From Pseudomonas fluorescens (GTDB lineage Bacteria > Pseudomonadota > Gammaproteobacteria > Pseudomonadales > Pseudomonadaceae), in assembly GCF_001623525.1 (NCBI RefSeq), contig NZ_CP015225.1, positions 5,096,501 through 5,160,500 of the forward strand: a DNA stretch of 64,000 bases, given 5' to 3'. The translations under genes were made by a program, and so were the position numbers. The notes under the pieces are model-generated. The model made no database searches, was not told the origin of the DNA, and saw only the letters and a program-made list of their open reading frames with translations. Positions 2,420 to 49,753 of the stretch are shown here, piece by piece (position 1 is the stretch's first letter; each line of letters begins with the position of its first letter).

Positions 2420-2464
2420 CGTGTACCTATTTAGCTAAATCCGCGGTATTTGAGGCTTTTTTTC

Positions 2465-3109
2465 ATGCAGGCGTATCAGCGCGATTTCATTCGCTTTGCC
2501 ATCGATCGCGGCGTTTTGCGCTTCGGTGAGTTCACCCTCAAGTCCGGGCGCACCAGCCCGTACTTCTTCAATGCCGGCCTGTTCAACACCGGTTCTGCCC
2601 TGGCGCAACTGGGTCGTTTCTATGCGGCGGCGATCGTCGAGAGCGGCATCCCGTTCGACGTGCTGTTCGGCCCAGCCTACAAAGGCATCCCGCTGGCCGC
2701 CACCACCGCCGTCGCCCTGGCTGAACATCACGACCGCGACTTGCCTTGGTGCTTCAACCGCAAGGAAGCCAAGGCCCATGGCGAAGGCGGCAGCCTGGTG
2801 GGTGCCCCGCTGAGCGGCGACGTGTTGATCATCGACGACGTCATCACCGCCGGCACTGCCATTCGCGAAGTGATGCAGATCATCGCTGCCCAGGAAGGCG
2901 CCAAGGCCGCTGGCGTGCTGATCGCCCTGAACCGCCAGGAGCGCGGCAACGGTGAGCTGTCGGCGATCCAGGAAGTGGAGCGTGACTTCGGCATTCCGGT
3001 GATCAGCATTGTGTCGCTGAACCAGGTGCTGGAGTTTTTGGCCGACGATCCGCAGCTCAAGCAGCATTTGCCGGCGGTTGAGGCTTATCGGGCGCAGTTT
3101 GGTGTCTGA
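2465..3109 (+). CDS. pyrE: Orotate phosphoribosyltransferase
   Basis: PyrE joins orotate to PRPP to make OMP, the fifth step of pyrimidine synthesis, in the cytoplasm. The PRPP-binding motif [13 protein letters not shown] lies near residues 121-133, and the loop [13 protein letters not shown] near residues 95-107 is the mobile catalytic loop. The start at 2465 (MQAYQRDF) gives 214 residues, one more than I recall for P. aeruginosa PyrE; a GAGG box lies a few bases upstream. Earlier in-frame starts would add only five residues. The gene is divergent from crc and ends at its own terminator. Confidence 0.96.
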
Positions 3110-3111
3110 AA

Positions 3112-3143
3112 AACCAAAGGCCCTGTGAGACAGGGCCTTTTAT
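3112..3143 (+). terminator. Terminator of pyrE
   Basis: AAGGCCCTGT-GAG-ACAGGGCCTTTTATT is a stem with a T-run directly after the pyrE stop. It also lies at the 3' end of the convergent toxin-like gene. Confidence 0.85.
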
Positions 3144-3153
3144 TCAGTGGCGC

Positions 3154-5069: not shown

Positions 5070-5081
5070 TGATGGAGCCCT

Positions 5082-5099
5082 TTTCAACGAATGTTGAAA
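5082..5099. promoter_or_regulatory. Operator copy 1 of the AbiE-like cassette
   Basis: TTTCAAC-GAAT-GTTGAAA is a perfect inverted repeat (8-base arms if 5081 and 5100 are counted). It lies 12 bases before the chosen antitoxin start, so binding here would cover the leader and ribosome site. A second copy lies 66 bp further upstream. Confidence 0.6.
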
Positions 5100-5147
5100 A
5101 TAGGTCAACTGGTGAAATTCTTCCAGTATTTTCAATAAATATGGCAG

Positions 5148-5165
5148 TTTCAGCGTTTGTTGAAA
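5148..5165. promoter_or_regulatory. Operator copy 2 of the AbiE-like cassette
   Basis: TTTCAGC-GTTT-GTTGAAA repeats the first box with one arm mismatch and a different 4-base centre. The conserved arms and varying centre point to a dimeric DNA-binding protein. Centre-to-centre distance to copy 1 is 66 bp, a little over six helical turns. Confidence 0.6.
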
Positions 5166-5243
5166 TGCGCGTATTTGATGAAACTCCAGCTTCCCTCGAC
5201 ATTCTCGAGCGCAAAAAAAATCGCGAGCCTCGCCAGCCCTAAC

Positions 5244-5267
5244 GGATTTTCGCAAACTCGAAAATCC
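5244..5267. repeat. Perfect stem (9-base arms) downstream of argB
   Basis: GGATTTTCG-CAAACT-CGAAAATCC lies about 40 bases after the argB stop in the direction of argB transcription. There is no T-run after it on the minus strand, so it is a weak terminator at best. It marks the border between the AbiE-like cassette and conserved chromosome. Confidence 0.5.
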
Positions 5268-5308
5268 AATTGGAGCTGTAAAGGTCGCGATCTGTTGCGT
5301 TTCCGGTA

Positions 5309-6214
<906 letters not shown>

Positions 6215-6241
6215 TCAGGGCTCCGGTAGTGCTTCAAAAAA

Positions 6242-7639
6242 TCAAAACGGTAGTTGGAGATCAGGTGCAACACGTTTGAGTTGGGTGTGGAACACATCCT
6301 TGATGCGCTGCAGTTCGGCCTCGTTGTCGGCCTCGAAACGCAGTACCAGCACCGGTGTGGTGTTGGATGCGCGAACCAGGCCCCAGCCGTGGGGATAGTC
6401 GACCCGCACACCATCGATGGTGGTCAGTTCGGCGCCTTCGCCCCATTGAGCGTCGTGCAGTGCATCAATGATGCTGAATTTGCTCTCTTCGGTCACATGG
6501 ATATTGATTTCTGGCGTAGAAATATCGTTCGGGAAGGTTGCGAACAGCTCTTCGGCCGTGGATTTTTCCTTGCTGAGGATTTCCAGCAGGCGCGCGGCGC
6601 TGTAGATGCCGTCGTCAAAACCGAACCAGCGCTCCTTGAAGAAGATGTGGCCGCTCATTTCGCCGGCCAACAGGGCGCCGCTTTGTTTCATTTTCTTCTT
6701 GATCAACGAATGACCGGTCTTCCACATCAATGGACGACCGCCATATTCCTTGATCAGCGGCACCAGGCGACGGGTGCATTTAACGTCAAAGATGATTTCG
6801 GCGTTCGGATTGCGCGCTACCACGTCCTTGGCAAACAGCATCAGCAGGCGGTCGGGGAACACCACGCTGCCGGTATTGGTCACCACGCCCACGCGGTCGC
6901 CGTCGCCGTCGAAGGCCAGGCCCAGGTCGGCGTTGGTTTCCTTGACCTTGGCGATCAGGTCTTCAAGGTTTTCCAGCTTGCCCGGATCCGGGTGGTGGTT
7001 AGGGAAGTTGCCATCCACGTCGCAGAACAGCGGGATGACTTCGCAGTTCAGGGCTTCGATCAGTTGCGGGGCGATCACGCCAGCCGCGCCGTTGCCGCAG
7101 TCGACCACCACTTTCAGGCGACGAGCGAGTTTCACGTCCTTGACGATTTCGTCGTTGTAGCGTTCGAGGATATCGACTTTGGTGATGCTGCCCTGGCCGC
7201 TGCTCAGGTCGTTGGTCTTGAGGCGGGTGTGCAGGGCCTGGATCTGCTCGTTGGCAAGGGTGTCGCCAGCGATGACGATCTTGAAGCCGTTGTAGTTCGA
7301 TGGGTTGTGGCTGCCGGTGAGCATCACCCCGGACTTGCCGGCCAACACGTTGGCGGCGTAATACAGCGCCGGGGTCGGCACCAGGCCCACGTCGCTGACG
7401 TGGCAGCCACTGTCGGCGACGCCTTTTATCAGTTGTTCGACCAGCTCAGGCCCCGACAAGCGGCCATCACGGCCGACGCACACGTTCGGTTCGCCCTGGG
7501 CCAGGCTCTGGGAGCCAATGGCCCGGCCGATCCAGTAGGCGGTTTCGGCGGTGAGGGTTTCCGGTACCACGCCACGGATGTCGTAGGCGCGGAAGATGCT
7601 GTCAGGGAAGATCGGGGCGATTGCGGCTGGGGTGTTCAT
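6242..7639 (-). CDS. algC: Phosphomannomutase/phosphoglucomutase AlgC
   Basis: AlgC interconverts the 1- and 6-phosphates of mannose and glucose, feeding alginate, LPS core and rhamnolipid synthesis. Sequence signs are the active-site serine loop LTGSHNPSNYNG, the metal loop FDGDGDRVG, the sugar loop GEMSGHIFF, and the phosphate loop VRASNTTPVLVLR near the C-terminus. At 465 residues it is close to the 463 of P. aeruginosa AlgC. It lies upstream of argB. A 257-base gap separates its start from the end of dut, and I see no gene there. Confidence 0.95.
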   Translation of the reverse strand: MNTPAAIAPIFPDSIFRAYDIRGVVPETLTAETAYWIGRAIGSQSLAQGEPNVCVGRDGRLSGPELVEQLIKGVADSGCHVSDVGLVPTPALYYAANVLAGKSGVMLTGSHNPSNYNGFKIVIAGDTLANEQIQALHTRLKTNDLSSGQGSITKVDILERYNDEIVKDVKLARRLKVVVDCGNGAAGVIAPQLIEALNCEVIPLFCDVDGNFPNHHPDPGKLENLEDLIAKVKETNADLGLAFDGDGDRVGVVTNTGSVVFPDRLLMLFAKDVVARNPNAEIIFDVKCTRRLVPLIKEYGGRPLMWKTGHSLIKKKMKQSGALLAGEMSGHIFFKERWFGFDDGIYSAARLLEILSKEKSTAEELFATFPNDISTPEINIHVTEESKFSIIDALHDAQWGEGAELTTIDGVRVDYPHGWGLVRASNTTPVLVLRFEADNEAELQRIKDVFHTQLKRVAPDLQLPF

Positions 7640-7896
7640 GGGCGGGGCGCTCTATCAGGAAAGTGACTGGACAGGCCGACGGGTCGCGTCGGCAGGCTCA
7701 AGCTGAAGGGTATGACGGCGTTTTTGACAGAGAGTTCGTGGTGGGAAAATGCCATGAGACAGCGTTACCCCGGCCTCGCTCGCCTAATACGTTGATTCCG
7801 GATGGGAAACCTAGCAGAAAGCCATTGCGCATTTTTTGTCCTGAAACACAAGCTTCACAAACGGGCCGGGCAGGACGCCCGGCTTGAAAACACCGG

Positions 7897-8352
7897 TCAA
7901 TGGCTGCCGGAATGCCCAAAACCACCCGCGCCACGCTGGCTTTCGTCGAACTCTTCGACCAGTTCGAAGTGGGCCTGGACCACCGGCACCAGCACCAGCT
8001 GCGCGATGCGTTCGCCCACGGCAATGTTGAAGGCTGTTTGGCCGCGGTTCCAGCACGACACCATCAGTTCGCCTTGATAGTCGGAGTCGATCAGGCCCAC
8101 CAGGTTGCCCAGCACGATGCCGTGCTTATGGCCCAGGCCCGAGCGCGGCAGGATCAGCGCGGCCAGGCCGGGATCCCCGATGTACACCGACAGGCCGGTA
8201 GGAATCAGCAGGGTCTGGCCCGGCTCCAGGATCGTGTCCTGCTTGAGCATCGCCCGCAGGTCGAGGCCGGCGGAGCCCGGTGTGGCGTATTGCGGCAGCG
8301 GGAATTCGTTGCCGATGCGTGGGTCGAGGATCTTGGCTTGTAGGGCGTGCAT
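7897..8352 (-). CDS. dut: dUTP diphosphatase
   Basis: Dut hydrolyses dUTP to dUMP, keeping uracil out of DNA and supplying thymidylate synthesis. All five trimeric dUTPase motifs are visible in order: GSAGLDLRA near residue 26, [22 protein letters not shown] with the catalytic Asp, [12 protein letters not shown], and the C-terminal [10 protein letters not shown] arm. The 151-residue length is standard. Its start is 4 bases from the coaBC stop, so it is the second gene of a coaBC-dut operon. Confidence 0.97.
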
Positions 8353-8356
8353 GACA

Positions 8357-9565
8357 TTAAACCTGGTTCAGACGTTCGGCGATAAAAGTGATCAGCTGGC
8401 GGGCAATCTTGCTCTTGCTGGTCTGGGCGAAAAGTGTGGCGTGCAACTGGCGGTCGATCACGCTGCAGGCGTTTTCTTCGCTGTTGAAGCCGATGCTCGG
8501 GTTGGCCACGTCGTTGGCGACGATCAAGTCGAGGTTCTTGTCCTTGAGCTTGCGTGCGGCGTAATCGAGCAGGTGTTCGGTCTCGGCGGCAAAGCCGACA
8601 CTGAACGGGCGGTCGGGGCGGGTGGCGATGCTGGCCAGGATGTCCGGGTTGCGCACCATTTGCAGGAGCAGGCCGTCGCCGCTTGTAGGGTCTTTCTTCA
8701 ATTTTTGCGGGGCGACGACTTCGGGGCGGTAGTCCGCCACCGCCGCCGAGGCGATGAACAGGTCGCAGGGGATGGCTGCTTCGCAGGCTGCGAGCATGTC
8801 CCGGGCGCTGACCACATCGATGCGCGTGACCCGGTCCGGAGTCGGCAGGTGCACGGGGCCGGTGATCAGTGTTACCCGGGCGCCGGCTTCTACCGCGGCT
8901 TCGGCCAGGGCGAAGCCCATTTTCCCGGAGCTGTGGTTGGTGATGTAGCGCACCGGGTCGATGTTTTCCTGGGTCGGTCCGGCGGTGATCAGCACGTGCT
9001 TGCCGGTCAGGGCCTGGCGCTGGAAGCAGTCGGCGGCGCACTGGGCCAGGTCGGTGGCTTCAAGCATGCGGCCCATGCCGACATCGCCACAGGCCTGGCT
9101 GCCGGAGGCGGGGCCGAAGACTTTCAGGGCGCGGCTTTCGAGCAATTGCAGGTTGGCCTGGGTGGCCGGGTCGCGCCACATGGCCTGGTTCATGGCCGGC
9201 GCCACGGCGACCACCGCGTCGGTGGCGAGCACCAGGGTGGTCAGCAGGTCGTCGGCGATGCCTTGGGCCAAACGGGCGATCAGGTCGGCCGTGGCCGGGG
9301 CGATCAGCACCAGGTCGGCCCACTTGGCCAGTTCGATGTGACCCATGGCGGCTTCGGCCGCCGGGTCGAGCAAATCCAGGTGGACCGGGTGCCCGGATAG
9401 GGCTTGCATGGTCAGCGGGGTAATGAACTCGCTGCCACCGCGGGTCATGACGACCCGTACTTCCGCGCCCTGGTCGATAAGCCTGCGAACCAGCTCGGCG
9501 CTCTTGTAGGCGGCAATGCCGCCGCCGACGCCCAGAACGATGCGTTTCCGATACAGCCGCTGCAT
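8357..9565 (-). CDS. coaBC: Bifunctional phosphopantothenoylcysteine decarboxylase/synthase
   Basis: This enzyme carries out two consecutive steps of coenzyme A synthesis: coupling 4'-phosphopantothenate to cysteine (CoaB, C-terminal half) and FMN-dependent decarboxylation (CoaC, N-terminal half). The N-terminal flavoprotein part shows [10 protein letters not shown] (residues 12-21), the PAMNQAMW motif, and the [10 protein letters not shown] flap cysteine. The second half starts with [17 protein letters not shown], the CoaB nucleotide site. At 402 residues it is full length. It is divergent from radC. Confidence 0.96.
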
Positions 9566-9709
9566 AGGCCTGCCTTTCGATTTCAGTGGTCAGTGCAAGA
9601 CGAACCCCTTGGCAGCAGCTGCCAGGGTGCAAATCGCCTGCAAAAAAGATGGGCTACGATATCACAGCGACCGCTATGGAACAGCGGCGCCCACAATCAG
9701 GGAGATGCC

Positions 9710-10384
9710 ATGAGTATTCGCGATTGGCCCGCGGCCGAGCGGCCACGGGAGCGGTTATTGGCGCTAGGGGCGGGGAGTCTATCGGACGCCGAGCTGCTGG
9801 CGATTTTTTTGCGCACCGGCGTGTCGGGCAAAAGCGCGGTGGATCTGGCGCGACAACTATTGATTCAATTTGGCAGCCTGCGCGCGCTGCTTGAAGCCGA
9901 TCAGATCACATTCAGTAATCATATGGGGCTCGGGCCGGCGAAGTTCGCCCAGCTGCAAGCGGCTCAGGAAATGAGTCGTCGGCATTTGGCTGAACGGGCA
10001 CGGGAAAAGACCCCGCTGGAAAGCCCGTTCGCGGTGCGTGAGTACCTGAAATCGATGCTGCGTCACGAACCCCACGAGGTGTTCGGTTGCCTGTTTCTCA
10101 ATGCCAAGCACCAGGTGCTGACCTTCGAGGCGCTGTTCCGCGGCTCTATCGACAGCGCCAGTGTCCATCCCCGGCAGGTCGTCAAGCGCGCCCTGGCCCA
10201 CAACGCCGCCGCGTTGATCCTGTGCCACAACCACCCCTCCGGCAACACCGAGCCCAGCCAGGCCGACCGGGTGCTCACTGAACGGCTTCAGGAGGCGTTG
10301 GAGCTGATCGATGTGCGGGTGCTCGACCATGTCATCGTTGGCGATGGGGAGCCGTTATCCATGGCGGAGCGTGGGTGGATGTGA
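9710..10384 (+). CDS. radC: RadC-family JAB metalloprotein
   Basis: The ATG at 9710, after GGGAGA, gives 224 residues, the usual RadC length. The N-terminal part has helix-hairpin-helix-like character. The C-terminal JAMM motif is intact: [10 protein letters not shown], then [15 protein letters not shown] with the two histidines and aspartate for zinc. RadC is named as a DNA repair protein, but its role in repair is doubtful in other bacteria and its true substrate is not known. It is transcribed away from coaBC. Confidence 0.93.
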
Positions 10385-10386
10385 GG

Positions 10387-10476
10387 CAGCGGCAAGCTGT
10401 CAGCTTCAAGCCGCAAGTTCAGAGCCGGGTGTGATCTGCTCTTGAGCTTGCAGCTTGCAGCTTACGGCTTGAGCCT
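10387..10476. repeat. AAGCTGCAAGC-type intergenic palindrome
   Basis: Between the convergent radC and solute-binding gene ends lie imperfect inverted copies of a CAAGC/GCTTG-rich unit (GCGGCAAGCTGTCAGCTTCAAGCCGCAAG and, inverted, CTTGAGCTTGCAGCTTGCAGC). The repeat runs past the solute-binding gene's stop codon at 10462-10464, so it supplies that stop and the last residues. Confidence 0.5.
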
Positions 10477-12051
10477 GACCTTCGAGTAATCCTGCCGCCC
10501 AAACGGGCTGACCGAGTAACCCTGCACATCCTTGCGGGTCAGGGCGAACGCGGTCGGGTGCGCCAGGGGCAGCCACAGGGCCTGTTGCTGGATCTGGGCC
10601 TGGGCCTGCTCGTAGAGCTTGGCCCGCACGCCTTGTTCGCCGGTGGTCTTGCCGGCGCTGATCAGTTTGTCCAGGTCGGGATTGCAGTAGCGGGCGAAGT
10701 TGGTGCCGGACTTGACCGCCGCGCAGGAAAACTGTGGCGTGAGGAAGTTGTCCGGGTCGCCGTTGTCGCCGGCCCAACCCATGAACAGCAAATCATGTTC
10801 GCCGGCCTTGGCGCGACGGATCAGTTCGCCCCATTCGATCACCCGGATCTCGGCCTGGATGCCGATCTGCGCCAGGTCGGATTGCAGCAGTTGTGCGCCG
10901 ACGCTGGGGTTGGGGTTCAGCAGGCTGCCGGAAGGGCGGGTCCAGATGGTGGTCTGGAAGCCTTCCTTCAAGCCGGCCTTGGCCAACAGGTCGCGGGCCT
11001 TGGCCAGATCATGGGTGTAGCCGGGCAGGCTTTTGGCGTAGCTCCAGGTGTTGGGCGGGTAGGGGCCATTGGCGGCTTCGGCGGTGCCTTCGAAGACGGT
11101 CTTCAGGTAGCTGGCCTTGTCGAAGGCCAGGTTGATGGCTTGGCGCACCTCAGGCTTGTCCAGCGGCGGATGCTGGCTGTTGATGGCCACGAATGCGGTC
11201 ATGAAGGCGTCGGTCTGCTCGACCTTCAGCGTAGGTTCTTGCTTGGCGGCTTGTACGTCCAGCGGCTTGGGCGACAGGGCGATCTGGCATTCGTTGCGAC
11301 GCAGTTTCTGCAGGCGCACATTGGCATCCGGCGTGATGGCGAAGACCAGCGGGTCCACTTGAGGCTTGCCGCCGAAATAGGCGTCGTTGGCCTTGTAGCG
11401 AATCGAGGCGTCCTTCTGGAACCGGCTGAAAATGAACGGGCCGGTGCCGATCGGCAGGCTGTTGAGCTTTTCCGGCGTACCGGCCTTCATCAACTGATCG
11501 GCGTATTCGGCCGAGTAAATGGAGGCAAAACCCATGCTCAACGTCGCCAGGAAGGTCGAGTCGGCGTGATCGAGGGTGAAGCGCACGGTCAACGGGTCCA
11601 GCGCATCGACTTTCTTGATCAGCGCCGGCAGTTGCATGGACTGGGCGTGGGGGAAACCGCTTTGCGCCACCTTGTGCCAGGGGTTCGCCGGATCGAGCAT
11701 GCGCTCGAAGCTGAACTTCACGTCCTCGGCGGTCAGGTCGCGGCGCGGCGTGAAGTAGTCGGTGTGGTGGAACTTGACCTGTGGCCGCAGCTTGAACACG
11801 TAGGTCAGGCCATCGGTGGAGACTTCCCAGCGCTCGGCCAGGCTGGGGACCACTTTGCCGCCGGCGGTATCGAAGTCCACCAGGCGGTTCATCAGCACGT
11901 CGGCGGAGGCGTTGGTGGTCGTCAGGGAGTTGTACTGGACGACATCGAACCCTTCCGGGCTGGCTTCGGTGCAGACGCTCAGGGCGGCGGCCAAGGCCTG
12001 TGGGGTGATCAGCAGAGGGGCGAGCAACAATGGTAGGGCAGCGAGGCGCAT
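10462..12051 (-). CDS. Peptide/nickel-type ABC transporter solute-binding protein
   Basis: This is a periplasmic family 5 binding protein, most like dipeptide-binding DppA proteins. From the ATG at 12051 the protein has 529 residues and begins with a clear signal peptide (MRLAALPLLLAPLLITPQALA, about residues 1-21). The pattern SLAERWEVSTDGLTYVFKLR, then FSFERMLDP, is typical of this family. No permease or ATPase gene is nearby, so it must share a transporter encoded elsewhere. The ligand cannot be told from sequence. An earlier in-frame start at 12069 would weaken the signal peptide. Confidence 0.88.
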   Translation of the reverse strand: MRLAALPLLLAPLLITPQALAAALSVCTEASPEGFDVVQYNSLTTTNASADVLMNRLVDFDTAGGKVVPSLAERWEVSTDGLTYVFKLRPQVKFHHTDYFTPRRDLTAEDVKFSFERMLDPANPWHKVAQSGFPHAQSMQLPALIKKVDALDPLTVRFTLDHADSTFLATLSMGFASIYSAEYADQLMKAGTPEKLNSLPIGTGPFIFSRFQKDASIRYKANDAYFGGKPQVDPLVFAITPDANVRLQKLRRNECQIALSPKPLDVQAAKQEPTLKVEQTDAFMTAFVAINSQHPPLDKPEVRQAINLAFDKASYLKTVFEGTAEAANGPYPPNTWSYAKSLPGYTHDLAKARDLLAKAGLKEGFQTTIWTRPSGSLLNPNPSVGAQLLQSDLAQIGIQAEIRVIEWGELIRRAKAGEHDLLFMGWAGDNGDPDNFLTPQFSCAAVKSGTNFARYCNPDLDKLISAGKTTGEQGVRAKLYEQAQAQIQQQALWLPLAHPTAFALTRKDVQGYSVSPFGRQDYSKVRLKP

Positions 12052-12488
12052 GGTCGGTTTCCTGTGCAAGTCGAAGGCCCATCTGCGAGTGCAGTCTGGA
12101 AAAGGCCTACCCTAGTGGGCTCGCCGCTAAATGACTATCCCCTTTTTGCATTTTCCGGCACTCTGCGCCGACACGTGGATGGACTAAAAATCGCCACAGA
12201 TGAAAAAAACCTGCATGCAGCGACGAGTGGTAAGGTGCTGTGCCAGCCTCTGCCCCCGCCGCCCGGGGCGGTTGGTCGATGATTCGCCATGAAGACAAAT
12301 CACATCGGCTGTTGTTGCGCTGTGGTCTTTCTGGTATAAAGCAGCGCTCTTTTCTAGGGGCCCGGTTCCTTCACTGTAGGTGTAGCCGGTAAGACCCTTA
12401 AAGAAACGCGGCGCCTGGCGCCAAATGACTGAGAGATTAAGCGGCCAACCCATGCCGGGTTGGGCATGTGGTTTTAGAGGGCTGAGGC
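12052..12488. other. Long spacer with rpmB leader; no gene seen
   Basis: This 437-base stretch separates the solute-binding gene from rpmB. The half next to rpmB holds a promoter and a leader of about 145 bases with possible stems at GGCGCC-TGGCGCC (near 12409-12421) and around AACCCATGCCGGGTTGGGCATG (near 12446-12468). I see no protein-coding signal. Confidence 0.6.
12312..12340 (+). promoter_or_regulatory. Candidate sigma-70 promoter of rpmB-rpmG
   Basis: TTGTTG at 12312-12317 and TATAAA at 12335-12340 are separated by 17 bases, the ideal spacing. The transcript would start near 12347 and carry a leader of about 140 bases before rpmB. Confidence 0.5.
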
Positions 12489-39935: not shown

Positions 39936-41429
39936 TCAGGGTGTGGCAGGCCGATACTGCAACGCTTCGGCCAGATGCTCGCGGCGGATGCTTGCCGCTT
40001 GTTCCAGGTCGGCCAATGTCCGGGCGACCTTGAGCAGGCGGTGGGCGGCACGCAGCGACAAGGTCAGCCGCTCGCAGGCGGTTTCCAGCCAGGTTTCGTC
40101 GGCTGTGGATAACTTGCAATGCCGACGCAGGCCCGGAAGATCCAGGAAGGCATTGGCGCAGCCCTGGCGTCGCTGTTGGCGTTCCCGGGCCTCGGCCACT
40201 CGTTCGGCGACGGTGGCCGTGTCCTCGCCCGTTGTGCTCTTCGGGTTAAGTGCGGTGGCTTCCCGGGCCACGGTCAAGTGCAGGTCGATACGGTCCAGCA
40301 ACGGACCGGACAACTTGTTGCGGTAGCGCTGCACCATGTCCGGTGAGCAGGAGCAACGACCGCTGGGTTCGCCAAGATATCCACAGGGGCAGGGGTTCAT
40401 CGCCGCCACCAGTTGGAAGCGTGCCGGAAACCGTACTCGATCACGGGCGCGGGACACCACGATGTGCCCTGACTCCAGCGGTTCCCTCAAGACTTCCAGC
40501 ACCTTGCGGTCGAACTCCGGCAGCTCGTCGAGAAACAGCACGCCATGGTGGGCGAGGGTTATTTCCCCGGGTTGCGGTTTCGACCCGCCACCCACCAGCG
40601 CTGGGCCGGAAGCCGAGTGATGGGGCTGGCGAAACGGCCGCTGCGGCCAATGGCTCAGCGGCACGCAACTGGCAACCGACTGAATCGCCGCTACCTCAAG
40701 GGCCTCGCTCTCGGCCAGGGGCGGCAGCAGCCCGGGCAGACGACTCGCCAGCAAGGTCTTGCCGGTGCCCGGTGGTCCGCTGAACAACAGGTTATGGGCC
40801 CCCGCGGCAGCGATCAGCAGGGCACGCTTGGCCCCGGCCTGGCCTTGTACTTCATTCAGATCGGGGTAGGGCTTGCTGGCCGAGAGCAGCCCATTGGAAA
40901 CGAAAGGCTCGACCGGTGTGTGCCCATTGAAGTGGGCCACTGCTTCGAGCAGATGATCCACGGCGATCACCTTCAGGCCCGACGCGAGGCAGGCTTCCTC
41001 GGCGTTGGCCCGTGGCACCACCAGCATGCGTCCGGCCTTGCGAGCCGCCAGCGCCGCTGGCAGTACCCCGCGCACCGGGCGCACCGCGCCGGACAAGGCC
41101 AACTCACCGAGACACTCGACGTCGTCCAGCGTCAGGGTTGGCACCTGCACACTGGCCGACAGGATGCCCAGGGCAATCGCCAGGTCGAACCGCCCGCCGT
41201 CCTTGGGCAGATCCGCCGGCGCCAGGTTCAGGGTGATGCGCCGCGCTGGGAAGCTCAGGCCCGAATTGATGATCGCGCTGCGCACCCGGTCCTTGCTTTC
41301 CTTCACCGCCGCCTCCGGCAGGCCAACCATCGTCAGCGACGGCAAGCCATTGGCCAGGTGGACTTCAACGGTAACGGCAGGCGCCTCGACCCCTACTTGG
41401 GCGCGGCTGTGGACGATGGCAAGCGACAT
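39936..41429 (-). CDS. comM: Mg-chelatase-like AAA+ ATPase ComM (YifB)
   Basis: ComM is a hexameric AAA+ helicase that helps branch migration during natural transformation. The 497 residues have an N-terminal DnaJ/Lon-like domain (residues 1-170), Walker A GPPGTGKT near residue 218, Walker B LFLDELPEF, and the zinc-type cysteines in MNPCPCGYLG. The start at 41429 follows AAGGAATG. Its stop is immediately next to that of the upstream DUF4432 gene (TGATCA), with no space for a terminator between them. Confidence 0.92.
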   Translation of the reverse strand: MSLAIVHSRAQVGVEAPAVTVEVHLANGLPSLTMVGLPEAAVKESKDRVRSAIINSGLSFPARRITLNLAPADLPKDGGRFDLAIALGILSASVQVPTLTLDDVECLGELALSGAVRPVRGVLPAALAARKAGRMLVVPRANAEEACLASGLKVIAVDHLLEAVAHFNGHTPVEPFVSNGLLSASKPYPDLNEVQGQAGAKRALLIAAAGAHNLLFSGPPGTGKTLLASRLPGLLPPLAESEALEVAAIQSVASCVPLSHWPQRPFRQPHHSASGPALVGGGSKPQPGEITLAHHGVLFLDELPEFDRKVLEVLREPLESGHIVVSRARDRVRFPARFQLVAAMNPCPCGYLGEPSGRCSCSPDMVQRYRNKLSGPLLDRIDLHLTVAREATALNPKSTTGEDTATVAERVAEARERQQRRQGCANAFLDLPGLRRHCKLSTADETWLETACERLTLSLRAAHRLLKVARTLADLEQAASIRREHLAEALQYRPATP

Positions 41430-41694
41430 GAATCATTCCTTGAGTGAATAGGGCGCCGCGTCCTGCGGCTCTGGAAGGTTAGTCGTGGGGATGAGCTTGG
41501 GCGCGGCAATTGAAGGGGGAAAATTTGGCAGGATGTTTCGACAGCGAGTGACGGCCGAGGGCGACAAGTGCGGTGCGGTAGCGCATATCACCGTCTCGCC
41601 TGTCCACGCAAAATGCCTGGGAAGGGCCCTCTGCTAGACTCCGATTTGCCCAGTCGGCACTTGGCGGTATCAACGGCACAACGAGGAAGTGGCC

Positions 41695-42972
41695 ATGAAC
41701 GATTTGCTGGCTCTGTTAACCGACAAGCGCTTCATGCCCCACGGGCATTGCTACATGTGGCGTCCGGATCTGCTGTGGACGAATGTGATCGCCGATAGCT
41801 TGATCGCCCTGTCCTACGTCACCATCCCCTTCACGCTCCTGTACTTTATCCACAAGCGCAAGGACGTGCCGTTCGACTGGATGCTCGCGGCCTTTGGCGT
41901 GTTTATCCTGGCCTGCGGGACCAGCCATGTGATGGAGATCCTGACCATCTGGCAGCCTTATTACTGGTTGATGGCGCTGGTCAAGGTCATCACTGCGATT
42001 GCCTCGGTGATTACCGCCATCCTGCTGGTCCGGCTGGTACCGGCGGCCCTGAAGATCCCCAGCCCGCAGCAATTGGCCAAGGTCAACGACGAGTTGCGCG
42101 AGGCCCAGGCCGAACTGGTCACCACCGCCCGCCGCGCCGGCATGGCGGAGATCGCCACCAATGTGCTGCACAACGTTGGCAATGTGCTCAACAGCGTCAA
42201 TGTGTCAGCCCAGGTCCTGTACGAGAAGGTGCACACCTCCAAGGGGCCCGGGGTGGCCAAGGTTGTCCAGTTGATGAAGGAGCATCCCGACGACCTCGGC
42301 GACTTCATCAGCAGCGACCCGAAAGGACGCGCGCTACCGGACTATCTCGACAAGCTGGCCGACGCGTTGGCCGTCGAGCAGCAGGGCATGATCGCCGAGT
42401 TGGCGCAGTTGACCCGCCGCATCGACCACATCAAGGAAATCGTCGCCACCCAGCAATCCTACGCCGGCAACGCCAGCGTGCTGGAGCCGGGCTCGTTGCG
42501 TGAGCTGGTCGAGGATGTCGTGCGCATTTGCGATGTGTCCCTGGCCCGTCACCACATCACGCTGATCAAGGAGTTCAGCGATATACCGCAAATGCCACTG
42601 GACAAGCACCGCGTGCTGCAGATCCTGGTCAATCTGATCAACAACGCCAAGCAGGCGCTGGACGCCGGTGTGAACCGGCCACCGCAGATCATCCTGCGCC
42701 TGAAGGTCGTTGACGATGGGCGCGTGCGGGTCGAGGTCCAGGACAATGGCGAGGGGATTGCGCAGGACAATCTTGCGCGGGTGTTCGAGCACGGCTTCAC
42801 CACGCGTGTCGACGGTCACGGCTTTGGTTTGCACAGCTGTATTCTGGCGGCGCACGAGATGGGCGGCGATCTGACGGCGCAGAGCGCGGGGCCGGGCCAG
42901 GGCGCGCTCTTTATCCTGGAGCTGCCGCTGGCACTGACCCCGGCTCCCTCTCAGCGGGTGGCGGGCGGTTGA
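41695..42972 (+). CDS. Histidine kinase with ethylene-receptor-like sensor domain
   Basis: The 425-residue protein has three membrane helices (about 28-53, 63-83 and 90-115) that match the ethylene-binding domain of plant ETR1. Asp34, Tyr41, Pro45, Ile71, Cys74 and His78 keep the spacing of ETR1 Asp25, Tyr32, Pro36, Ile62, Cys65 and His69 (the last two hold copper). A coiled coil leads directly to the kinase: phosphoacceptor H159 in VLHNVGN, N box NLINNAKQAL, G1 DNGEGI, G2 GHGFGLH. No GAF or receiver is present, and no response regulator is nearby. The ATG at 41695 follows GAGGAAG. Ethylene sensing is an inference. Confidence 0.85.
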   Translation: MNDLLALLTDKRFMPHGHCYMWRPDLLWTNVIADSLIALSYVTIPFTLLYFIHKRKDVPFDWMLAAFGVFILACGTSHVMEILTIWQPYYWLMALVKVITAIASVITAILLVRLVPAALKIPSPQQLAKVNDELREAQAELVTTARRAGMAEIATNVLHNVGNVLNSVNVSAQVLYEKVHTSKGPGVAKVVQLMKEHPDDLGDFISSDPKGRALPDYLDKLADALAVEQQGMIAELAQLTRRIDHIKEIVATQQSYAGNASVLEPGSLRELVEDVVRICDVSLARHHITLIKEFSDIPQMPLDKHRVLQILVNLINNAKQALDAGVNRPPQIILRLKVVDDGRVRVEVQDNGEGIAQDNLARVFEHGFTTRVDGHGFGLHSCILAAHEMGGDLTAQSAGPGQGALFILELPLALTPAPSQRVAGG

Positions 42973-42979: not shown

Positions 42980-44614
42980 CTACACCTCCCTCAGCAATTG
43001 ATCGGCGATACGAATGCTCAGTGCGGCCCCAGTCAACGTGGGGTTCACGCAGGACGATGACGGCATCACGCTGGTCCCGGCGATAAACAGGTTGGCGTGG
43101 TCGTGGCTACGGCAGTCGCGGTCGACCACCGAGTTCTTCGGATCGTCGCCCATGATGGTGGTGCCCATGATGTGCTGACGGTTCTGGAAGTTGACGTCGG
43201 TGCTGAGGATGTCGGCGTCGAGCAGGTGGGCGAACTGCTTGAGGTCCTCCAAGGCCTTTTCCTTGCCCGCGTGCCAGTAGTCGGGAACGCTGTAGTAGAT
43301 TTCCGGTACCGGCAGGCCTATCGCGTCGAAGCGAGTCTTGCTCGGGGTGACGCGGTTTTCCGGCAACGGCAGGGTCTCGAAGTCCACCGCCCAGTTCAAG
43401 GAACGTGCCGACTGCAGGCGGATCTGTTCGTCGAGCTTGGAGCCCAGCACGCCCTTGGCGATCAGGTTGGTGGTGATCTGCGAGGTGGGCACCGTGTTGC
43501 GGACCTTGATCTTGTAGCTCGGGTAGTCCTTGCGGAACGCGCCGTCGCGGCTGTTCAGGTAGACCAGCAACTGGGTCGGACCCTCGCCGGGCCACATGTC
43601 CTCCTTGGTCATCACGTTCATGCTCACGCCGGTGTGGTCCATCAGGTTGCGACCGACCTGATCGGAAGTATTGGCGATGCCGTTGGGGTATTTCTCGGAC
43701 GTGGACATCAGCAACAGCTTCGGCGATTCGATGCCATAGGCCGCCAGCACGAAGTACCGGGCGGTCAGGCGATGTTGGCTCTTGTCGGGGCGCATGTACC
43801 AGATCGCGGTGATCTTGCTGTCATCGCCGGCCTCGATCCGGTACACCACCGAATTGTCCAGAACCTTGGCGCCATGGCGCTCGGCCTCGTCGATATGCAT
43901 CGAACCGTCGTACTTGGCGGCAATCGGGCAGACCGGGTTGCAGTTGTTGTTGCCCGCGCACGGTGGGCGTTTGCCATAGGGGCGGGTGGCGCGACCATTG
44001 GGTTCGAGGATCGGGTTGTAGCCGCCCTTGCTCAACAGGCTCGAGAGGCGCTTGAACATGTAGCTGGGCTTCAGGCCTTCCATCGGGTAGGGGATCGAGC
44101 GCGGTGGATAAGCCGCGCCACCCTGGCCGCTTTCATCCTGGCCGTCGACCCCGGACACACCCAGCTCGGTCTCGGCGCGGGCGTAGAAGGGTTCCAATTC
44201 GTCATAGCTGATCGGCCAGTCACGCCCGCGTCCGTAGAGGGAGTTGAGGCGGAAGTCGTTGGGCAGCATGCGCCACAGCGAGGAACCGAAGTGCCAAGTG
44301 GTGCCGCCGACCACCCGCAGGTAGGAGGTGTTGTACTTCACCGGGCCGACCTGCTGCAGGTAGTCGCCATAGGTGGAGGGCGCATGGGGCAGGCTCGGAT
44401 AGGGCGAGCCGGCACCCTGCAGCTTGGCGTTGGCCAGCGAGAGCTTGACCGGCGCGTTGCGGAAGGTCTCGACGATGTCGCGGCGGTTCACCCGTGGGCC
44501 CGCTTCGAGGACGATCACGGATTTGTTCGCCTTGGCCAGCTCGCTGGCAATCAAGCCACCCATCACGCCGGAACCGATGACGACCACATCGGCGTCATAA
44601 ACAACGCTGCTCAT
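42980..44614 (-). CDS. GMC-family flavoprotein subunit of a periplasmic dehydrogenase
   Basis: The 544-residue flavoprotein binds FAD with VVIGSGVMGGLIASELAKA (residues 10-28) and ends with the GMC C-terminal block GTSVMPSSSCVNPTLTGAALSIRIADQL, as in the gluconate/sorbitol dehydrogenase large subunits. It has no signal peptide of its own; in this family the Tat-signalled small subunit carries it across the membrane. It is the last of three genes, and its start overlaps the small-subunit stop by 4 bases. The sugar or alcohol oxidised is unknown. Confidence 0.88.
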   Translation of the reverse strand: MSSVVYDADVVVIGSGVMGGLIASELAKANKSVIVLEAGPRVNRRDIVETFRNAPVKLSLANAKLQGAGSPYPSLPHAPSTYGDYLQQVGPVKYNTSYLRVVGGTTWHFGSSLWRMLPNDFRLNSLYGRGRDWPISYDELEPFYARAETELGVSGVDGQDESGQGGAAYPPRSIPYPMEGLKPSYMFKRLSSLLSKGGYNPILEPNGRATRPYGKRPPCAGNNNCNPVCPIAAKYDGSMHIDEAERHGAKVLDNSVVYRIEAGDDSKITAIWYMRPDKSQHRLTARYFVLAAYGIESPKLLLMSTSEKYPNGIANTSDQVGRNLMDHTGVSMNVMTKEDMWPGEGPTQLLVYLNSRDGAFRKDYPSYKIKVRNTVPTSQITTNLIAKGVLGSKLDEQIRLQSARSLNWAVDFETLPLPENRVTPSKTRFDAIGLPVPEIYYSVPDYWHAGKEKALEDLKQFAHLLDADILSTDVNFQNRQHIMGTTIMGDDPKNSVVDRDCRSHDHANLFIAGTSVMPSSSCVNPTLTGAALSIRIADQLLREV

Positions 44615-45159
44615 AGTTTGAAATCCTGCGTGTCGGCTGGCTTGGCGCCCCAGGATTCGGGGCCGCCACCGTAGGTTGGAATGATGAGAATGCCGTGGGT
44701 CGGGCGATACATCAGCGCTTCGCGGTAGCTGATCAGTTCGGCATCGGCGAGCTCGCCGACGATGCCCAAGTACCAGGCCGAGATGATGCTGGTGGCCGTC
44801 GCTTTCAACGATGGGTCCGGGTTGGCCTGGGCCAGGTATTCATCCACATGCTTGAAGCCCTGCCCGTCGACCAGTTGCTTGAGGGCGCCGACATTGCCGC
44901 TGAAGTTCGGTGCGCGCCGGCTCAGGGCGCGGTAGTAGCGCGCCGCCAGGACCGGGTTGACCGGACGGCTGACAAGGAATTGCGACAGGGCGATAAAGTC
45001 CTGGTCGCCCTCGGCCATCACCGATTGCCAGGGGGCGAGCCCTCCGGCCAGGGCCACCAGGCCCAGGGTGACTGACCCGCGCAGCAGGCTACGGCGGGAC
45101 AGTCGGGCGGTAGGGATGGATGAAACGGGCATGTGGGTGTCGGTCATTGAAGTTTCCAT
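44611..45159 (-). CDS. Tat-signalled small subunit of the dehydrogenase
   Basis: The 182-residue protein begins with a twin-arginine signal (LSRRSLLRG, near residues 20-28, then a hydrophobic stretch to about residue 45). The rest resembles small subunits of sorbitol or gluconate 2-dehydrogenase. Such subunits ferry and hold the GMC flavoprotein. It starts with the ATG at 45159, 8 bases after GGAGG, 3 bases after the cytochrome stop. Confidence 0.82.
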   Translation of the reverse strand: METSMTDTHMPVSSIPTARLSRRSLLRGSVTLGLVALAGGLAPWQSVMAEGDQDFIALSQFLVSRPVNPVLAARYYRALSRRAPNFSGNVGALKQLVDGQGFKHVDEYLAQANPDPSLKATATSIISAWYLGIVGELADAELISYREALMYRPTHGILIIPTYGGGPESWGAKPADTQDFKL

Positions 45160-45162
45160 TGC

Positions 45163-46533
45163 TCAGGCCTCCTGCAGCCGGCGACGAGCCTTGAGTCTGT
45201 AAAGCCCCAGGATGATCAGCAGGCCGAGCACAACCAGTGCCGGTACGCTGTAGCGTGCCAGCACGGCGATGGGGGCCTTGGGTCCACCTTCGCGTACCTG
45301 TGCCACATCGGCGGCAGTCACGTTCAAGCCGGCGTTGCCGTAGCGGGACAGGACGTAGTTGCTGACGTCGGCGATCTGCTGGTCGTCGAGGCGATCGGTG
45401 AACAGCGCGCCGGGACCGAAGGCCGGCATGTCGATTGCCACGCCGTCGACTTCGCGATGCACGCCGTAGACGATGGTCGCGATCAGGTTGTCGCGGCGGC
45501 TGGTCGCGGTGTTGTGGAACAGTGACGGATACTCACGGGTGCCCTCGCCGTTGGCCTGGTGACAGTTGGCACAGGTGCCGCTGAAGATGTGCCAGCCCGG
45601 ATTGTCCTGCGGCTTGCCGCCGCGCAGGTTGAGTTCGTCGTTCGAGGCCTGGCCGAAGGTATGGCGGGCCTGGCGTTCGCCGGTGGCGATTGGCTGGGTC
45701 TGCAGCAAGTAGGCGGCGATGGCCTTGAGGTCCTCCTCGCCGAGGTACTGCAGGCTGTGCTCGACCGCCTCGGCCATGGGCCCGGCAGCCTGCGCCTTGC
45801 CCTCCACATGACCGCTGCGCAGGTAGGCAACGAGCTCATCGCTCGACCAGGCGCCGATACCGCTGGTCTTGTCCGAGGTGATGTTCGGGGCGTACCAGGC
45901 CCCCAGCGAACCACCGGAAAGCGCCTTGGCGTTATCCGCCGCCATCAGGACATTGCGTGGGGTATGGCAGGTGTCGCAATGGGCCAGTGCGTTGACCAGG
46001 TAGTCGCCGCGATTGACCTGCGCGGACTTGCCCGGATCCGCCTCGAAGCGTTTCTGGCGATGGAACAAGGCGTTCCAGCCGAGCATCGAGGCGCGGATAT
46101 TGAACGGAAAGTCGAGCTCGGTCTTGGGGCTGGGCGTATCCACCGGCTCGACTTCATCCATGAAGTACTGGTACAGGGCGGCGACGTCACTGTCGGTCAT
46201 CTTTGCGTAGGAGGTGTAGGGCATTGCCGGGTACAGGTGGGTGCCGTCCGGGGTCACACCGTCGCGCACGGCGCGGGCGAAGTCTGCCTGAGTGTATTGG
46301 CCGATGCCGGCACTCCTGGAAGGGGTGATGTTGGTTGAGTAGATGGTGCCCATCGGCGAGTTGAGTGGGTAACCGCCGGCAAAGGGCTTGCCACCGACGG
46401 TGCTATGGCAGGCCACGCAATCGGCGGCCACCGCCAGTCGCTTGCCGGGCGAAGCGCTGGTGTCGAGTGTCTCGCCGTGGGTCGCCAGGCTGATCGTCAT
46501 CAGGGCCAGGCCGCCCGCGAGCATATTCCTCAT
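45163..46533 (-). CDS. Triheme cytochrome c subunit of the dehydrogenase
   Basis: The 456-residue protein has a signal peptide (MRNMLAGGLALMTISLATHG), three haem motifs CVACH, CDTCH and CANCH, and a C-terminal membrane anchor (VLARYSVPALVVLGLLIILGLYRL) before a basic end. It is the quinone-reducing cytochrome of gluconate/alcohol dehydrogenase complexes. I chose the ATG at 46533, after AAGGTG. It is the first gene of the operon cytochrome-small subunit-flavoprotein. Confidence 0.9.
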   Translation of the reverse strand: MRNMLAGGLALMTISLATHGETLDTSASPGKRLAVAADCVACHSTVGGKPFAGGYPLNSPMGTIYSTNITPSRSAGIGQYTQADFARAVRDGVTPDGTHLYPAMPYTSYAKMTDSDVAALYQYFMDEVEPVDTPSPKTELDFPFNIRASMLGWNALFHRQKRFEADPGKSAQVNRGDYLVNALAHCDTCHTPRNVLMAADNAKALSGGSLGAWYAPNITSDKTSGIGAWSSDELVAYLRSGHVEGKAQAAGPMAEAVEHSLQYLGEEDLKAIAAYLLQTQPIATGERQARHTFGQASNDELNLRGGKPQDNPGWHIFSGTCANCHQANGEGTREYPSLFHNTATSRRDNLIATIVYGVHREVDGVAIDMPAFGPGALFTDRLDDQQIADVSNYVLSRYGNAGLNVTAADVAQVREGGPKAPIAVLARYSVPALVVLGLLIILGLYRLKARRRLQEA

Positions 46534-46646
46534 GGACTTCACCTTGCCCACGCCGGGCAATGGCTGGTCCCTCCTCTGCGGATACATGTGTCACTCCTCA
46601 TGGGTTTCGACGCGTGGCCTTTGGCTCGGTTCGTAAAAATTGCACG

Positions 46647-46659
46647 GTTGTACGATGTC
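46647..46659. promoter_or_regulatory. Repeated box GTTGTACGAYGTC, copy 1
   Basis: GTTGTACGATGTC is matched by a second copy 224 bp away with one mismatch. The GTACGA core and spacing suggest a GntR-type operator for the dehydrogenase operon. Confidence 0.4.
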
Positions 46660-46870
46660 TTGCGTTGCGACAAAGATTTCACATGGTGTAACATTTTGCA
46701 ACGTTTATGGCTAATGGCTACTATCCGTTTGTTTTTATTTAATGGCTCTAGTACGCGCATTTCAGAAAATCATTAGCAAAATAATCGTCAACGAAGAAGG
46801 CCAGAAAGAAAGGAAATTGCTTCATCCAGATTGAGGGTGAACAGAGAGGTGCGGTTTACATTTTTGTAAT

Positions 46871-46883
46871 GTTGTACGACGTC
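46871..46883. promoter_or_regulatory. Repeated box GTTGTACGAYGTC, copy 2
   Basis: GTTGTACGACGTC continues as ATAAC, so it reads as GTTGTACGACGTCATAAC, close to an inverted repeat (GTTRT...). This is the form of many FadR-type operators. It lies 176 bases before the chemoreceptor start. Confidence 0.4.
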
Positions 46884-47046
46884 ATAACGAAAAAACCATC
46901 AAGCGGTACGCCAACGATGCCCTGTCGGCAGACGAGCCCGAGCAGCGATGGAATCAGGACACAGGCCCTTGACCTGGCGTTACGCGGGGCAGGGAAATGC
47001 ACACATGACCGGGCTGCTGGACCAGCACCCCCATGAGGATCCACCG

Positions 47047-48687
47047 ATGAACTGGCTCAACGACGCAAAACTATCGACCAAATTGATCACCTCGTTTTTC
47101 CTCTGCGCCCTGATAACGCTCGCCGTGGGCCTGCTTGGCGTCAGTGGGGTTTCCGCGCTGTCGACACGTTTGCAGGGAGTGTTCAACAACAACCTGGTCT
47201 CGGTCGCCAATACGTCGCAGACCAAGACCAAGGCGGTCGGCCAGACGCGTGACATGTATCGGTTGTATGTCGCTACCGCCGGCAATGCTCCGCAGAGCAT
47301 GAAGGATGAGTTCCTCGCTTCGATGAAAGCCAATCAGTTGGCCAGCGAAAAGGCTTTCGCCGATTACCGCAAGGGCAATCTGGCTGAAGACGAGCGCATC
47401 GCCGGCGACCAGATGGCCCGCGATTGGCCGGTCTACCAGGCCATGGTGCAGCAGTACCTGGCAATGATGGCGGCTGGCGACCTGGAGAATGGCCGCACCC
47501 TGCTGCTGGGGGATTTGCAGAAGGCGTATCGCAAGGTGATGGACCAGTTGACCATCATGATCGACTCCAATGACCGTCAGATCAGCGAAGACGCCAAGGC
47601 CGCCACGCAGCAGGAGGTGACGGCCAAGACCGTGTTGTACAGCGGCATCGTCGTGGCGTTTATCGCCGCACTCCTGTTGGGTATGTTTATCAGTCGCCTG
47701 ATCAGTCGACCGATTGCGGTGGCGGTCGATTGCGCACAACGCATCGCCCAGGGCGACCTCACTCAGCACATCACCAGCAACAGTCGCGACGAGGCCGGCC
47801 AGTTGCTCAAGGCCCTGGGCGACATGCAGACGAGTTTGAAGACCACCATCCAGCAGATTGCCAGCGCTTCGGACCAATTGGCTTCCGCCGCCGAGGAGCT
47901 GACGGCGGTCACCGATGATGGCAGTCGTGCCTTGATCCGACAGAATGATGAAATCCAGCAGGCCGCCACGGCCGTGACCGAGATGACTTCCGCAGTCGAG
48001 GAAGTGGCCCGCAACGCGGTCTCCACTTCACAGGCTTCGCAATCGACCAGCTCACAAGCCAGCGAGGGGCGTGATCAGGCCCGTAGCGCGGTGCAGGCGA
48101 TCAACACCGCAACCCAGGAAATCACCTCGTCCACTGGGCTGGTCAAGGATCTTGCCGTGCAGGTGCGCGATATTGGCAAGGTGCTGGATGTGATCCGCGG
48201 GATCGCTGAACAGACTAACCTGTTGGCGCTCAACGCGGCCATCGAGGCGGCACGCGCCGGGGAACAGGGTCGCGGTTTTGCTGTGGTGGCCGATGAGGTT
48301 CGCGCCCTGGCAGCCCGCACCCAGGCGTCAACCGGTGAAATCGAGAGCATGATCCACGCGGTACAGGACCGTGCCGACAGTGCGGTTGATGCGATGGGCA
48401 AGAGCCAGGCGTTGGTGACCGAGACCCAGGACCTGGCCCGGGCCACTGGCGAGGCGCTGGAGCAGATCGCCGATAATATTTCGCAGATCAATGACCGTAA
48501 CCTGGTGATTGCCACGGCGTCCGAGGAGCAGGCCCATGTGGCCCGCGAGGTCGATCGCAACCTGGTGAATATCCAGGATCTCTCGACCCAGACTGCGGCC
48601 GGGGCGAACCAGACCAATGCTTCGAGCCAGGAGCTGTCCAACCTGGCCCTGTCATTCAATAGCCTGGTTGGCCGTTTCCGTCTCTGA
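47047..48687 (+). CDS. Methyl-accepting chemotaxis protein with four-helix-bundle sensor
   Basis: The ATG at 47047 gives 546 residues with TGAGGATCCACCG before it. The first membrane helix is at about residues 11-33, a helical sensor of the 4HB_MCP type follows (residues 34-188), then the second helix (about 192-212), a HAMP unit ([23 protein letters not shown]) and the signalling hairpin ([32 protein letters not shown]). The upstream dehydrogenase genes are transcribed the other way; shared regulation is possible. Ligand unknown. Confidence 0.88.
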
Positions 48688-48740: not shown

Positions 48741-49001
48741 TTATTCCTGGGCCGGAACCAGTCGCGCTTCCAGCTCAGCGACCTTGGCCTCCAGGCTTTC
48801 CAGCCGCGCTCGGGTCCGGGCCAGCACGACCATCTGGCTGTCGAATTCTTCCCGGCTTACCAGGTCCAGTTTGCTGAAGCCGCTTTGCAGCAGGGCCTTG
48901 AACTGGCTTTCGATTTCGCTTTTTGGCAGGGGGGTGTCACCACTCAAGAGGCGGGAGGCGTGGCCGCTCAGGGCGTCGAGGAGGTCTTTGGGCGCAAGCA
49001 T
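48741..49001 (-). CDS. ubiK: UbiK accessory factor (YqiC/BMFP)
   Basis: The 86-residue protein has a C-terminal coiled coil (VVLARTRARLESLEAKVAELEARL) and the family core LLQSGFSKLDLVSREEFDSQ. UbiK helps the cytoplasmic ubiquinone-synthesis complex hold hydrophobic intermediates. Length is typical. It lies alone between the chemoreceptor and glnK, transcribed on the minus strand. Confidence 0.88.
   Translation of the reverse strand: MLAPKDLLDALSGHASRLLSGDTPLPKSEIESQFKALLQSGFSKLDLVSREEFDSQMVVLARTRARLESLEAKVAELEARLVPAQE

Positions 49002-49189: not shown

Positions 49190-49753
<564 letters not shown>

Follow-up and report, generated by a model that had tools for sequence, protein, structure and literature searches.

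A histidine kinase gene of Pseudomonas fluorescens, at 41695..42972 of the window (the whole stretch of 64,000 nucleotides that was analysed), joins an ethylene-binding domain (EBD) of the plant ETR1 type to a kinase module of a family whose partner receivers can be named by genome comparison. We consider it fairly probable that the protein, here called EBD-HK, is a membrane ethylene receptor kinase signalling in trans to a hub of cyclic di-GMP (c-di-GMP) enzymes. The observed basis comprises the domain with its residues, the assignment of the kinase module to its family, and the co-occurrence and adjacency of that module with one family of receivers. It further includes a genome, G149, with a single such kinase and a single such receiver. 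Comparison of genomes thus brings a receptor, a family of kinases and named c-di-GMP enzymes into one line. The ETR1-type domain class was already known; the wiring to this kinase family and the predicted c-di-GMP partner are new. If the reading is correct, a gas-sensing domain of plant-hormone type feeds enzymes that help to decide between swimming and settling.

The features of the gene and of its site in the window are as follows.

41695..42972, + strand: EBD histidine kinase gene (EBD-HK), 425 aa; single copy in the genome (open reading frame, Pfam)
41770..42057, + strand: ETR1_N (PF25487) ethylene-binding domain, residues 26-121 (Pfam E 7.8e-37; AlphaFold helices)
41914..41928, + strand: Cys74 (codon 41914-41916) and His78 (codon 41926-41928), which would be the Cu(I) ligands (translation, alignment; role by analogy with ETR1 and AzoEtr1)
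42106..42930, + strand: kinase module of the LHNxGN family, residues 138-412, with the H-box His159 at 42169-42171 (four 57-58% paralogues in the genome; alignment)
42601..42933, + strand: HATPase_c, residues 303-413 (Pfam E 2.5e-18)
39936..41429, - strand: yifB/comM-like gene (Mg_chelatase/ChlI domains), bounding the apparent insertion site on the left (Pfam; gene order in relatives)
48741..49001, - strand: BMFP-family gene, right edge of the apparent insertion site, followed by P-II at 49415-49753 (Pfam; gene order)

The Ethylene-Binding Domain

The reading frame starts at an ATG at 41695, preceded by GAGGA at 41683-41687, and its stop ends at 42972; the program-made listing of open reading frames places the start two codons upstream, at a GTG. 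An initial annotation, made from the letters alone, had described a gene with a three-helix membrane domain here. The frame was confirmed, and an AlphaFold model shows three long helices, at residues 24-54, 61-86 and 90-120, with moderate confidence (mean pLDDT 67.7). The profile search proposed at that time gave a clear match to ETR1_N, with 125.9 bits against a cut-off of 27 over profile positions 2-97 of 97. Searched genome-wide, the profile matched in one place (E 2.5e-37), and it matched in none of 14 control genomes.

Residues D34, Y41, I44, P45, I71, C74 and H78 are all present in the translation, and the six that had been listed earlier stand where they were placed, with the spacing of ETR1. 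Each binding residue carries the ETR1 number plus 9, the ETR1 counterparts of Tyr41, Pro45 and Ile71 being Tyr32, Pro36 and Ile62. The numbers D25, C65 and H69 are published (PMC11819568, excerpt). Among 26 aligned EBDs (7 from Pseudomonas and 19 others, leaving aside L055-L058, which score below threshold, and nearly identical copies from Pseudomonas), 24 retain Cys74, 25 retain His78 and 25 Tyr41; Ile71 is retained in 23, Pro45 and Lys97 each in 22 and Asp34 in 21. The Asp34-Lys97 spacing equals that of D35 and K98 in AzoEtr1 of Azospirillum brasilense, a protein with all seven required residues; its N-terminal 130 residues, produced in yeast, bind ethylene (PMC11819568, excerpt). Given the ETR1_N match, the binding residues and the AzoEtr1 precedent, the sensor of EBD-HK is therefore a genuine member of the ethylene-binding-domain class, and it would be expected to bind ethylene itself. 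Two ETR1_N proteins, at loci L052 and L053, have Ser and Ala instead of the copper-ligand Cys, and that of L052 also has Tyr for His; proteins of this kind are possibly non-ethylene versions of the domain.

The closeness of Cys74 and His78 in the model says nothing about a copper site, because the two are i and i+4 on one helix and residues so placed are always close. The best PDB matches of the model are ZraS and HK853, and the structure search supports the kinase part only; a sequence search for a solved EBD structure, at E up to 1, found none. Pfam detects neither PAS nor, at E up to 1, GAF, and the domain joins the kinase directly, as had been described.

A Sensor-Swapping Kinase Family

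HATPase_c is the only kinase domain of EBD-HK that Pfam matches; there is no match to HisKA (PF00512). The H-box reads LHNVGN, with HN where classical histidine kinases have HE/D. Within its own genome the module (residues 138-412) has four paralogues at 57-58% identity, and the other 29 of its 34 matches reach at most 38%. Two of these paralogues have DAHL inputs and a third has a dCache match that stays under the cut-off. The fourth, encoded next to acdS, is a large HAMP-HisKA-HATPase-REC hybrid that ends in the module. All five kinases share GMAEIAT[N/T]VLHNVGNVLNSVN. EBD-HK matches the module alignment (A1, seven rows, of which it is one) at E 2.1e-150. Judged by sequence, the LHNxGN kinases are a sensor-swapping family with five members in this genome.

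Outside Pseudomonas the combination with an EBD was not seen. The motif occurs in none of the 18 EBD proteins of a first set, some of which are cut by locus ends, and the module in none of 27 readable order-level loci. The latter come from 28 fetched of 43 listed matches (L180 was unreadable), and they include two cut loci (L168, L182) and three short ones (L179, L181, L183).

Pairing with a Receiver Family

The module alignment A1 (threshold E <=1e-40) and a three-row receiver alignment, A2 (E <=1e-20), were both run against the same 185 Gammaproteobacterial genomes. The module was found in 10 of these (20 hits) and a receiver with the motif DD[TND]xxIHxD in 13 (21 hits), including all 10 that carry the module (Fisher p 2.8e-14, kinship ignored). 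For 11 of the 20 module hits a receiver gene starts 20-88 bases downstream on the same strand, with at least one such pair in every module genome; the remaining nine have no adjacent receiver. The three genomes with a receiver and no module gave weak receiver hits only (1e-24 to 1e-35).

Both motifs are present in all ten pairs taken from other genera (L126-L135), and the two genes overlap by 4 bases in five of them, with gene starts chosen mechanically. The inputs of these ten kinases are diverse: PAS (two), CHASE8-HAMP, MASE1-GAF, MHYT, HAMP-PAS, MASE3-PAS, PilJ-PAS, hybrid-kinase and receiver-PAS. Six of their receivers carry a GGDEF-EAL output and three an HATPase, and in the tenth Pfam recognises no additional domain. 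The MHYT membrane sensor belongs to the kinase at 3596-5293 of L129, which is paired with a REC-GGDEF-EAL protein.

Among 48 Pseudomonas genomes the receiver occurs in all 32 that carry the module, and G018 has a receiver without it. Every one of the 24 genomes with an EBD has the receiver, G149 in a single copy and the other 23 in three. Among 24 EBD-negative genomes, which were the first of the draw and not a random sample, it occurs in nine (Fisher p 2.4e-6, kinship ignored).

The c-di-GMP Hub and Genome G149

In the genome of the window three receivers with the DD[TND]xxIHxD motif lie in a hub at 6274 to 6284 kb, about 1.1 Mb from EBD-HK; the locus holding the hub genes is L125 (genome 6274000-6292000), positions 1-9532.

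Genome 6279645-6281936: hub REC-PAS-GGDEF-EAL, 763 aa, GGDEF motif intact, EAL motif degenerate
Other hub genes: MauG-type cytochrome; DAHL kinase; REC-GGDEF-EAL (GSDEF motif, EAL intact); REC-HisKA-HATPase; divergent REC-HD (HD-GYP type)

The REC-PAS-GGDEF-EAL protein is, from its motifs, likely to be a diguanylate cyclase. The REC-HisKA-HATPase gene overlaps the hub DAHL kinase gene by 4 bases and the REC-GGDEF-EAL gene lies beyond that for the MauG-type cytochrome; the receivers of both proteins begin RRILxxDDTPxIHxDFRKIL. Five LHNxGN kinases face three receivers in this genome.

The case of G149 is simpler. At the thresholds used, its sole module is that of EBD-HK and its sole receiver that of the convergent neighbour, a REC-PAS-GGDEF-EAL protein, and the 3' ends of the two genes overlap by 14 bases. 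Over 742 aa this neighbour shares 65% identity with the 763-aa REC-PAS-GGDEF-EAL protein in the hub of the window genome, and it gives partial matches, at 40-58%, to the other two hub proteins. The initial annotation had noted that no response regulator lies beside the gene, which holds for the ten neighbouring genes scanned in the window, and had called for a search for the partner. That search finds none adjacent in the window, but genome comparison names the DD[TND]xxIHxD receiver family, which the annotation had missed. EBD-HK is an orphan by gene position only, because comparing genomes points to a predicted partner receiver for its kinase family. Other orphan kinases of the LHNxGN family gain candidate partners from the receiver motif as well.

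Apparent Exchange of Kinase Halves

In a 39-row kinase tree, for which 5 of the 10 other-genus modules and 20 of about 120 listed module stretches were used, the kinase halves of EBD-HK proteins occupy two separate positions, with G070 and G079 grouping among hybrid kinases (92/80). They were joined as one clade in none of 200 bootstraps, and a single kinase-half clade gave an AU p of 0.023, in a test without outgroups on a group named after the first tree had been seen. In a 53-row tree without L052, L053, L054 and L180 the Pseudomonas EBD halves make up a single clade (97/86), with L156 and L157 as its neighbours; a smaller EBD tree, of 26 rows, leaves out the first three of these loci. A single origin of the fusion is thus weakly rejected for the kinase half by the AU test and kept for the EBD half. 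The simplest reading of these trees is that the sensor was retained and kinase halves were swapped inside the LHNxGN family, and such exchange would fit a shared partner.

Genomic Site and Distribution

Genes were called in 19 EBD-HK loci with wide flanks (L025-L035 and L097-L104; L033 and L102 are one contig). In 15 of them EBD-HK is flanked by yifB on one side and a BMFP-glnK-amtB block on the other, with extra genes before BMFP in L028, L034 and L104; in L097-L100 it occupies other sites. For comparison, 24 yifB loci without an EBD were taken from 20 Pseudomonas genomes picked by hand, many for acdS. BMFP adjoins yifB in nine of these (L073, L079-L084, L088 and L089), a small call lies between them in L074, and the other 14 are partial or have no BMFP call within 1.5 kb. 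Since yifB stands next to BMFP in these nine EBD-free loci, EBD-HK looks like an insertion into the core chromosome. At the alternative sites it lies beside an MCP gene with genes that are presumably Che-like and gyrB-like (L097, L098), or beside a REC-PAS-GGDEF-EAL gene and presumed gyrB-like genes (L099); a receiver gene adjoins it in only one of the four kinds of Pseudomonas site.

In the window EBD-HK sits between two chemoreceptor genes. One of these, of the 4HB type, shares the insertion site with a GMC/FAD-SLDH/cytochrome c dehydrogenase set (42980-48687), and this arrangement occurs at the site, besides the window strain, only in L028 and L104 of the 19 wide loci.

The EBD is uncommon in the genus, occurring in 24 of 398 Pseudomonas species genomes with one copy each. 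In 23 of the 24 the hit lies in an open frame of 418-477 aa, and in the copy of G124 (L103) the gene is broken into two frames, called as 232 and 184 aa, with one TAG flagged. The nearest named relatives are P. brassicacearum (97%), P. kilonensis (96%) and P. thivervalensis (95%), which agrees with the earlier view of a copy in a plant- or soil-type Pseudomonas. The named carriers are P. brassicacearum (two subspecies), P. thivervalensis, P. kilonensis, P. frederiksbergensis SI8, P. mediterranea, P. tehranensis, P. uvaldensis, P. zanjanensis, P. agronomica and Pseudomonas sp. RGM2987.

The statement in the initial annotation that such domains are known from some cyanobacteria and a few other bacteria proved incomplete, as 12 of 369 Gammaproteobacterial genomes and 36 of 293 genomes of the order have an ETR1_N match above the Pfam cut-off, the own genome included in both counts, and marine genera such as Psychrosphaera and Paraglaciecola also carry the domain. 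EBDs being so widespread, plant ethylene need not be the signal source. Two of the 18 non-Pseudomonas proteins scanned (L045 and L048, both cut by locus ends) have the EBD fused directly to PAS-GGDEF, so that it is joined to c-di-GMP enzymes elsewhere too.

The acdS cut-off was passed in 14 of 24 EBD genomes and 37 of 374 others (Fisher p 4.3e-8, kinship ignored). A functional link between EBD-HK and ACC deaminase is not drawn from this association, because the named carriers are mostly of one species group.

Proposed Mechanism and Alternatives

From this material we infer the ligand, the phosphotransfer, the direction and the phenotype of the pathway. Cu(I) would sit at Cys74 and His78 within three membrane helices that would, as the residues suggest, bind ethylene. 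This would change the autophosphorylation of His159 in the cytoplasmic LHNxGN module, probably lowering it, by a weak analogy. Phosphate would pass in trans to the DD[TND]xxIHxD receivers, above all to the hub REC-PAS-GGDEF-EAL protein, with its operon mates REC-GGDEF-EAL and REC-HisKA-HATPase perhaps further targets. Ethylene would thus tune c-di-GMP and so the choice between biofilm and motility, and the four other family kinases (two DAHL, one weak dCache and one hybrid) would feed the same hub. The prediction rests on the family pairing, the c-di-GMP outputs, G149 and the 65% hub orthologue. That a direct phosphorelay leads from ethylene to c-di-GMP in root-associated Pseudomonas, with sensor-swapping kinases converging on a hub with both diguanylate cyclase and phosphodiesterase, appears to us an even proposition; if it does, ethylene and four other inputs jointly set biofilm against motility. 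Counting against this reading are the HN H-box without a HisKA match, the distance of about 1.1 Mb, the five kinases on three receivers, the nine of 20 modules with no receiver next to them and the receiver neighbour at just one of four kinds of Pseudomonas site, and against a c-di-GMP output the three of ten paired receivers that drive a kinase and the one with nothing recognised.

Kinase activity falls in response to ethylene in plants and, as indirect evidence indicates, in Synechocystis; in Azospirillum ethylene lowers c-di-GMP by a route stated as unknown (PMC11819568, excerpt). The direction of the EBD-HK response cannot be read off, because the effects of ethylene on biofilm are opposite in Azospirillum and Synechocystis (PMC11819568, excerpt).

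The same hub could instead serve a protein that binds Cu(I) but senses another signal, such as copper, redox state, CO, acetylene or some other small gas. EBDs in marine and other bacteria without obvious plant contact would fit such a role, as would the Cys-less ETR1_N proteins of L052 and L053. So too would the carriage by the same kinase module, in L129, of MHYT, a membrane domain suggested to bind copper and to sense gases. We regard this as unlikely, since EBD-HK keeps the full ETR1 residue set, Asp34 and Lys97 included, and ethylene can also be made outside plants; AzoEtr1, with the required residue set, does bind ethylene (PMC11819568, excerpt). A departure at the other end of the pathway, by which an ethylene receptor would act on an unrelated regulator or on neighbouring chemoreceptors and Che proteins, draws on the position of EBD-HK between two chemoreceptor genes with no hub receiver adjacent, and on the MCP and what we take to be Che-like genes beside it in G070 and G079. 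The two chemoreceptor genes are not both kept beside it in relatives, however, the 4HB one being present in L028 and L104 only of the 19 wide loci. Moreover, module and receiver are tightly paired in other genera, with the H-box and the receiver helix-1 motif kept in ten pairs, and in G149 one kinase faces one receiver; an output of this kind therefore seems to us distinctly improbable.

It would be more surprising still if EBD-HK were a decaying mobile passenger without present function. Its patchy presence (24/398), its several different sites and the broken copy of G124 are what such a passenger might leave, but the other 23 hits lie in open frames, and copies with 61-97% identity to one another still share the key residues and the H-box. 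We accordingly give this explanation very little weight and favour that of an ethylene receptor kinase acting on the hub.

Relation to Known Systems

Plant ETR1, which carries a GAF domain between EBD and kinase, shares with EBD-HK the same EBD, the residue spacing and the three membrane helices. It differs in the receiver present in some members and in signalling through CTR1 that is mostly kinase-independent (PMC11819568, excerpt). AzoEtr1 is similarly a single-copy EBD histidine kinase with the required residues in a plant-associated proteobacterium, but it has 525 aa, a PAS domain and an adjacent gene for a 135-aa lone receiver (PMC11819568, excerpt). EBD-HK, in contrast, lacks PAS, belongs to another kinase family and has no adjacent regulator, its predicted partner being a c-di-GMP enzyme in trans. 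In Synechocystis, SynEtr1 (slr1212) likewise combines an EBD with a histidine kinase and a phosphorelay to a response regulator; it has a GAF light sensor, and its partner slr1213 activates transcription of an sRNA (PMC11819568, PMC7700396, excerpts), whereas EBD-HK has no GAF and a predicted enzyme as partner.

Two systems resemble the proposed output. In the CfcA-CfcR system of Pseudomonas putida the kinase gene also lies apart from an orphan REC-PAS-GGDEF-EAL protein, which is a diguanylate cyclase once phosphorylated (PMC4951495, PMC6849547, excerpts). CfcA, with H496, is a hybrid of the CHASE3/GAF kind, and D65 is the phosphorylation site of CfcR (PMC4951495, excerpt); the corresponding Asp of the hub receiver is expected near residue 89, so that this receiver looks different from CfcR. 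CfcR was set aside as the partner by description, that is, by the published position of the phospho-Asp and the kinase type. In the AsrK-AsrR system of Vibrio furnissii a membrane sensor kinase also controls c-di-GMP via a regulator, and its ligand inhibits the autokinase, but the sensor is a dCache domain for autoinducer-2 (PMC11796354, excerpt).

Movement of Pseudomonas towards ethylene was reported by Kim et al. 2007, as cited in PMC4686702 and PMC8515041 (excerpts). The literature searched, with subscription reviews mostly outside its coverage and a prior mention therefore possible, yielded no description of an EBD receptor in Pseudomonas, and the word Pseudomonas does not occur in the main text of PMC11819568 or PMC7700396.

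Three minor observations may be added. At 3157-5069 of the window are two genes with low coding scores, of which the second gave no PADLOC match and the first is a weak match to AbiEii (22.9 bits). Locus L069 (genome 2147000-2160000) holds, at 5552-12226, a 1239-aa double kinase (HAMP-HisKA-HATPase-REC plus LHNxGN module) beside acdS, the ACC deaminase gene, together with a divergent Lrp-type regulator gene and a gene for a periplasmic binding protein. In G395 (L100, 4641-9002) EBD-HK lies beside heme oxygenase and bacteriophytochrome genes, an arrangement that recalls the joint sensing of ethylene and light by SynEtr1.
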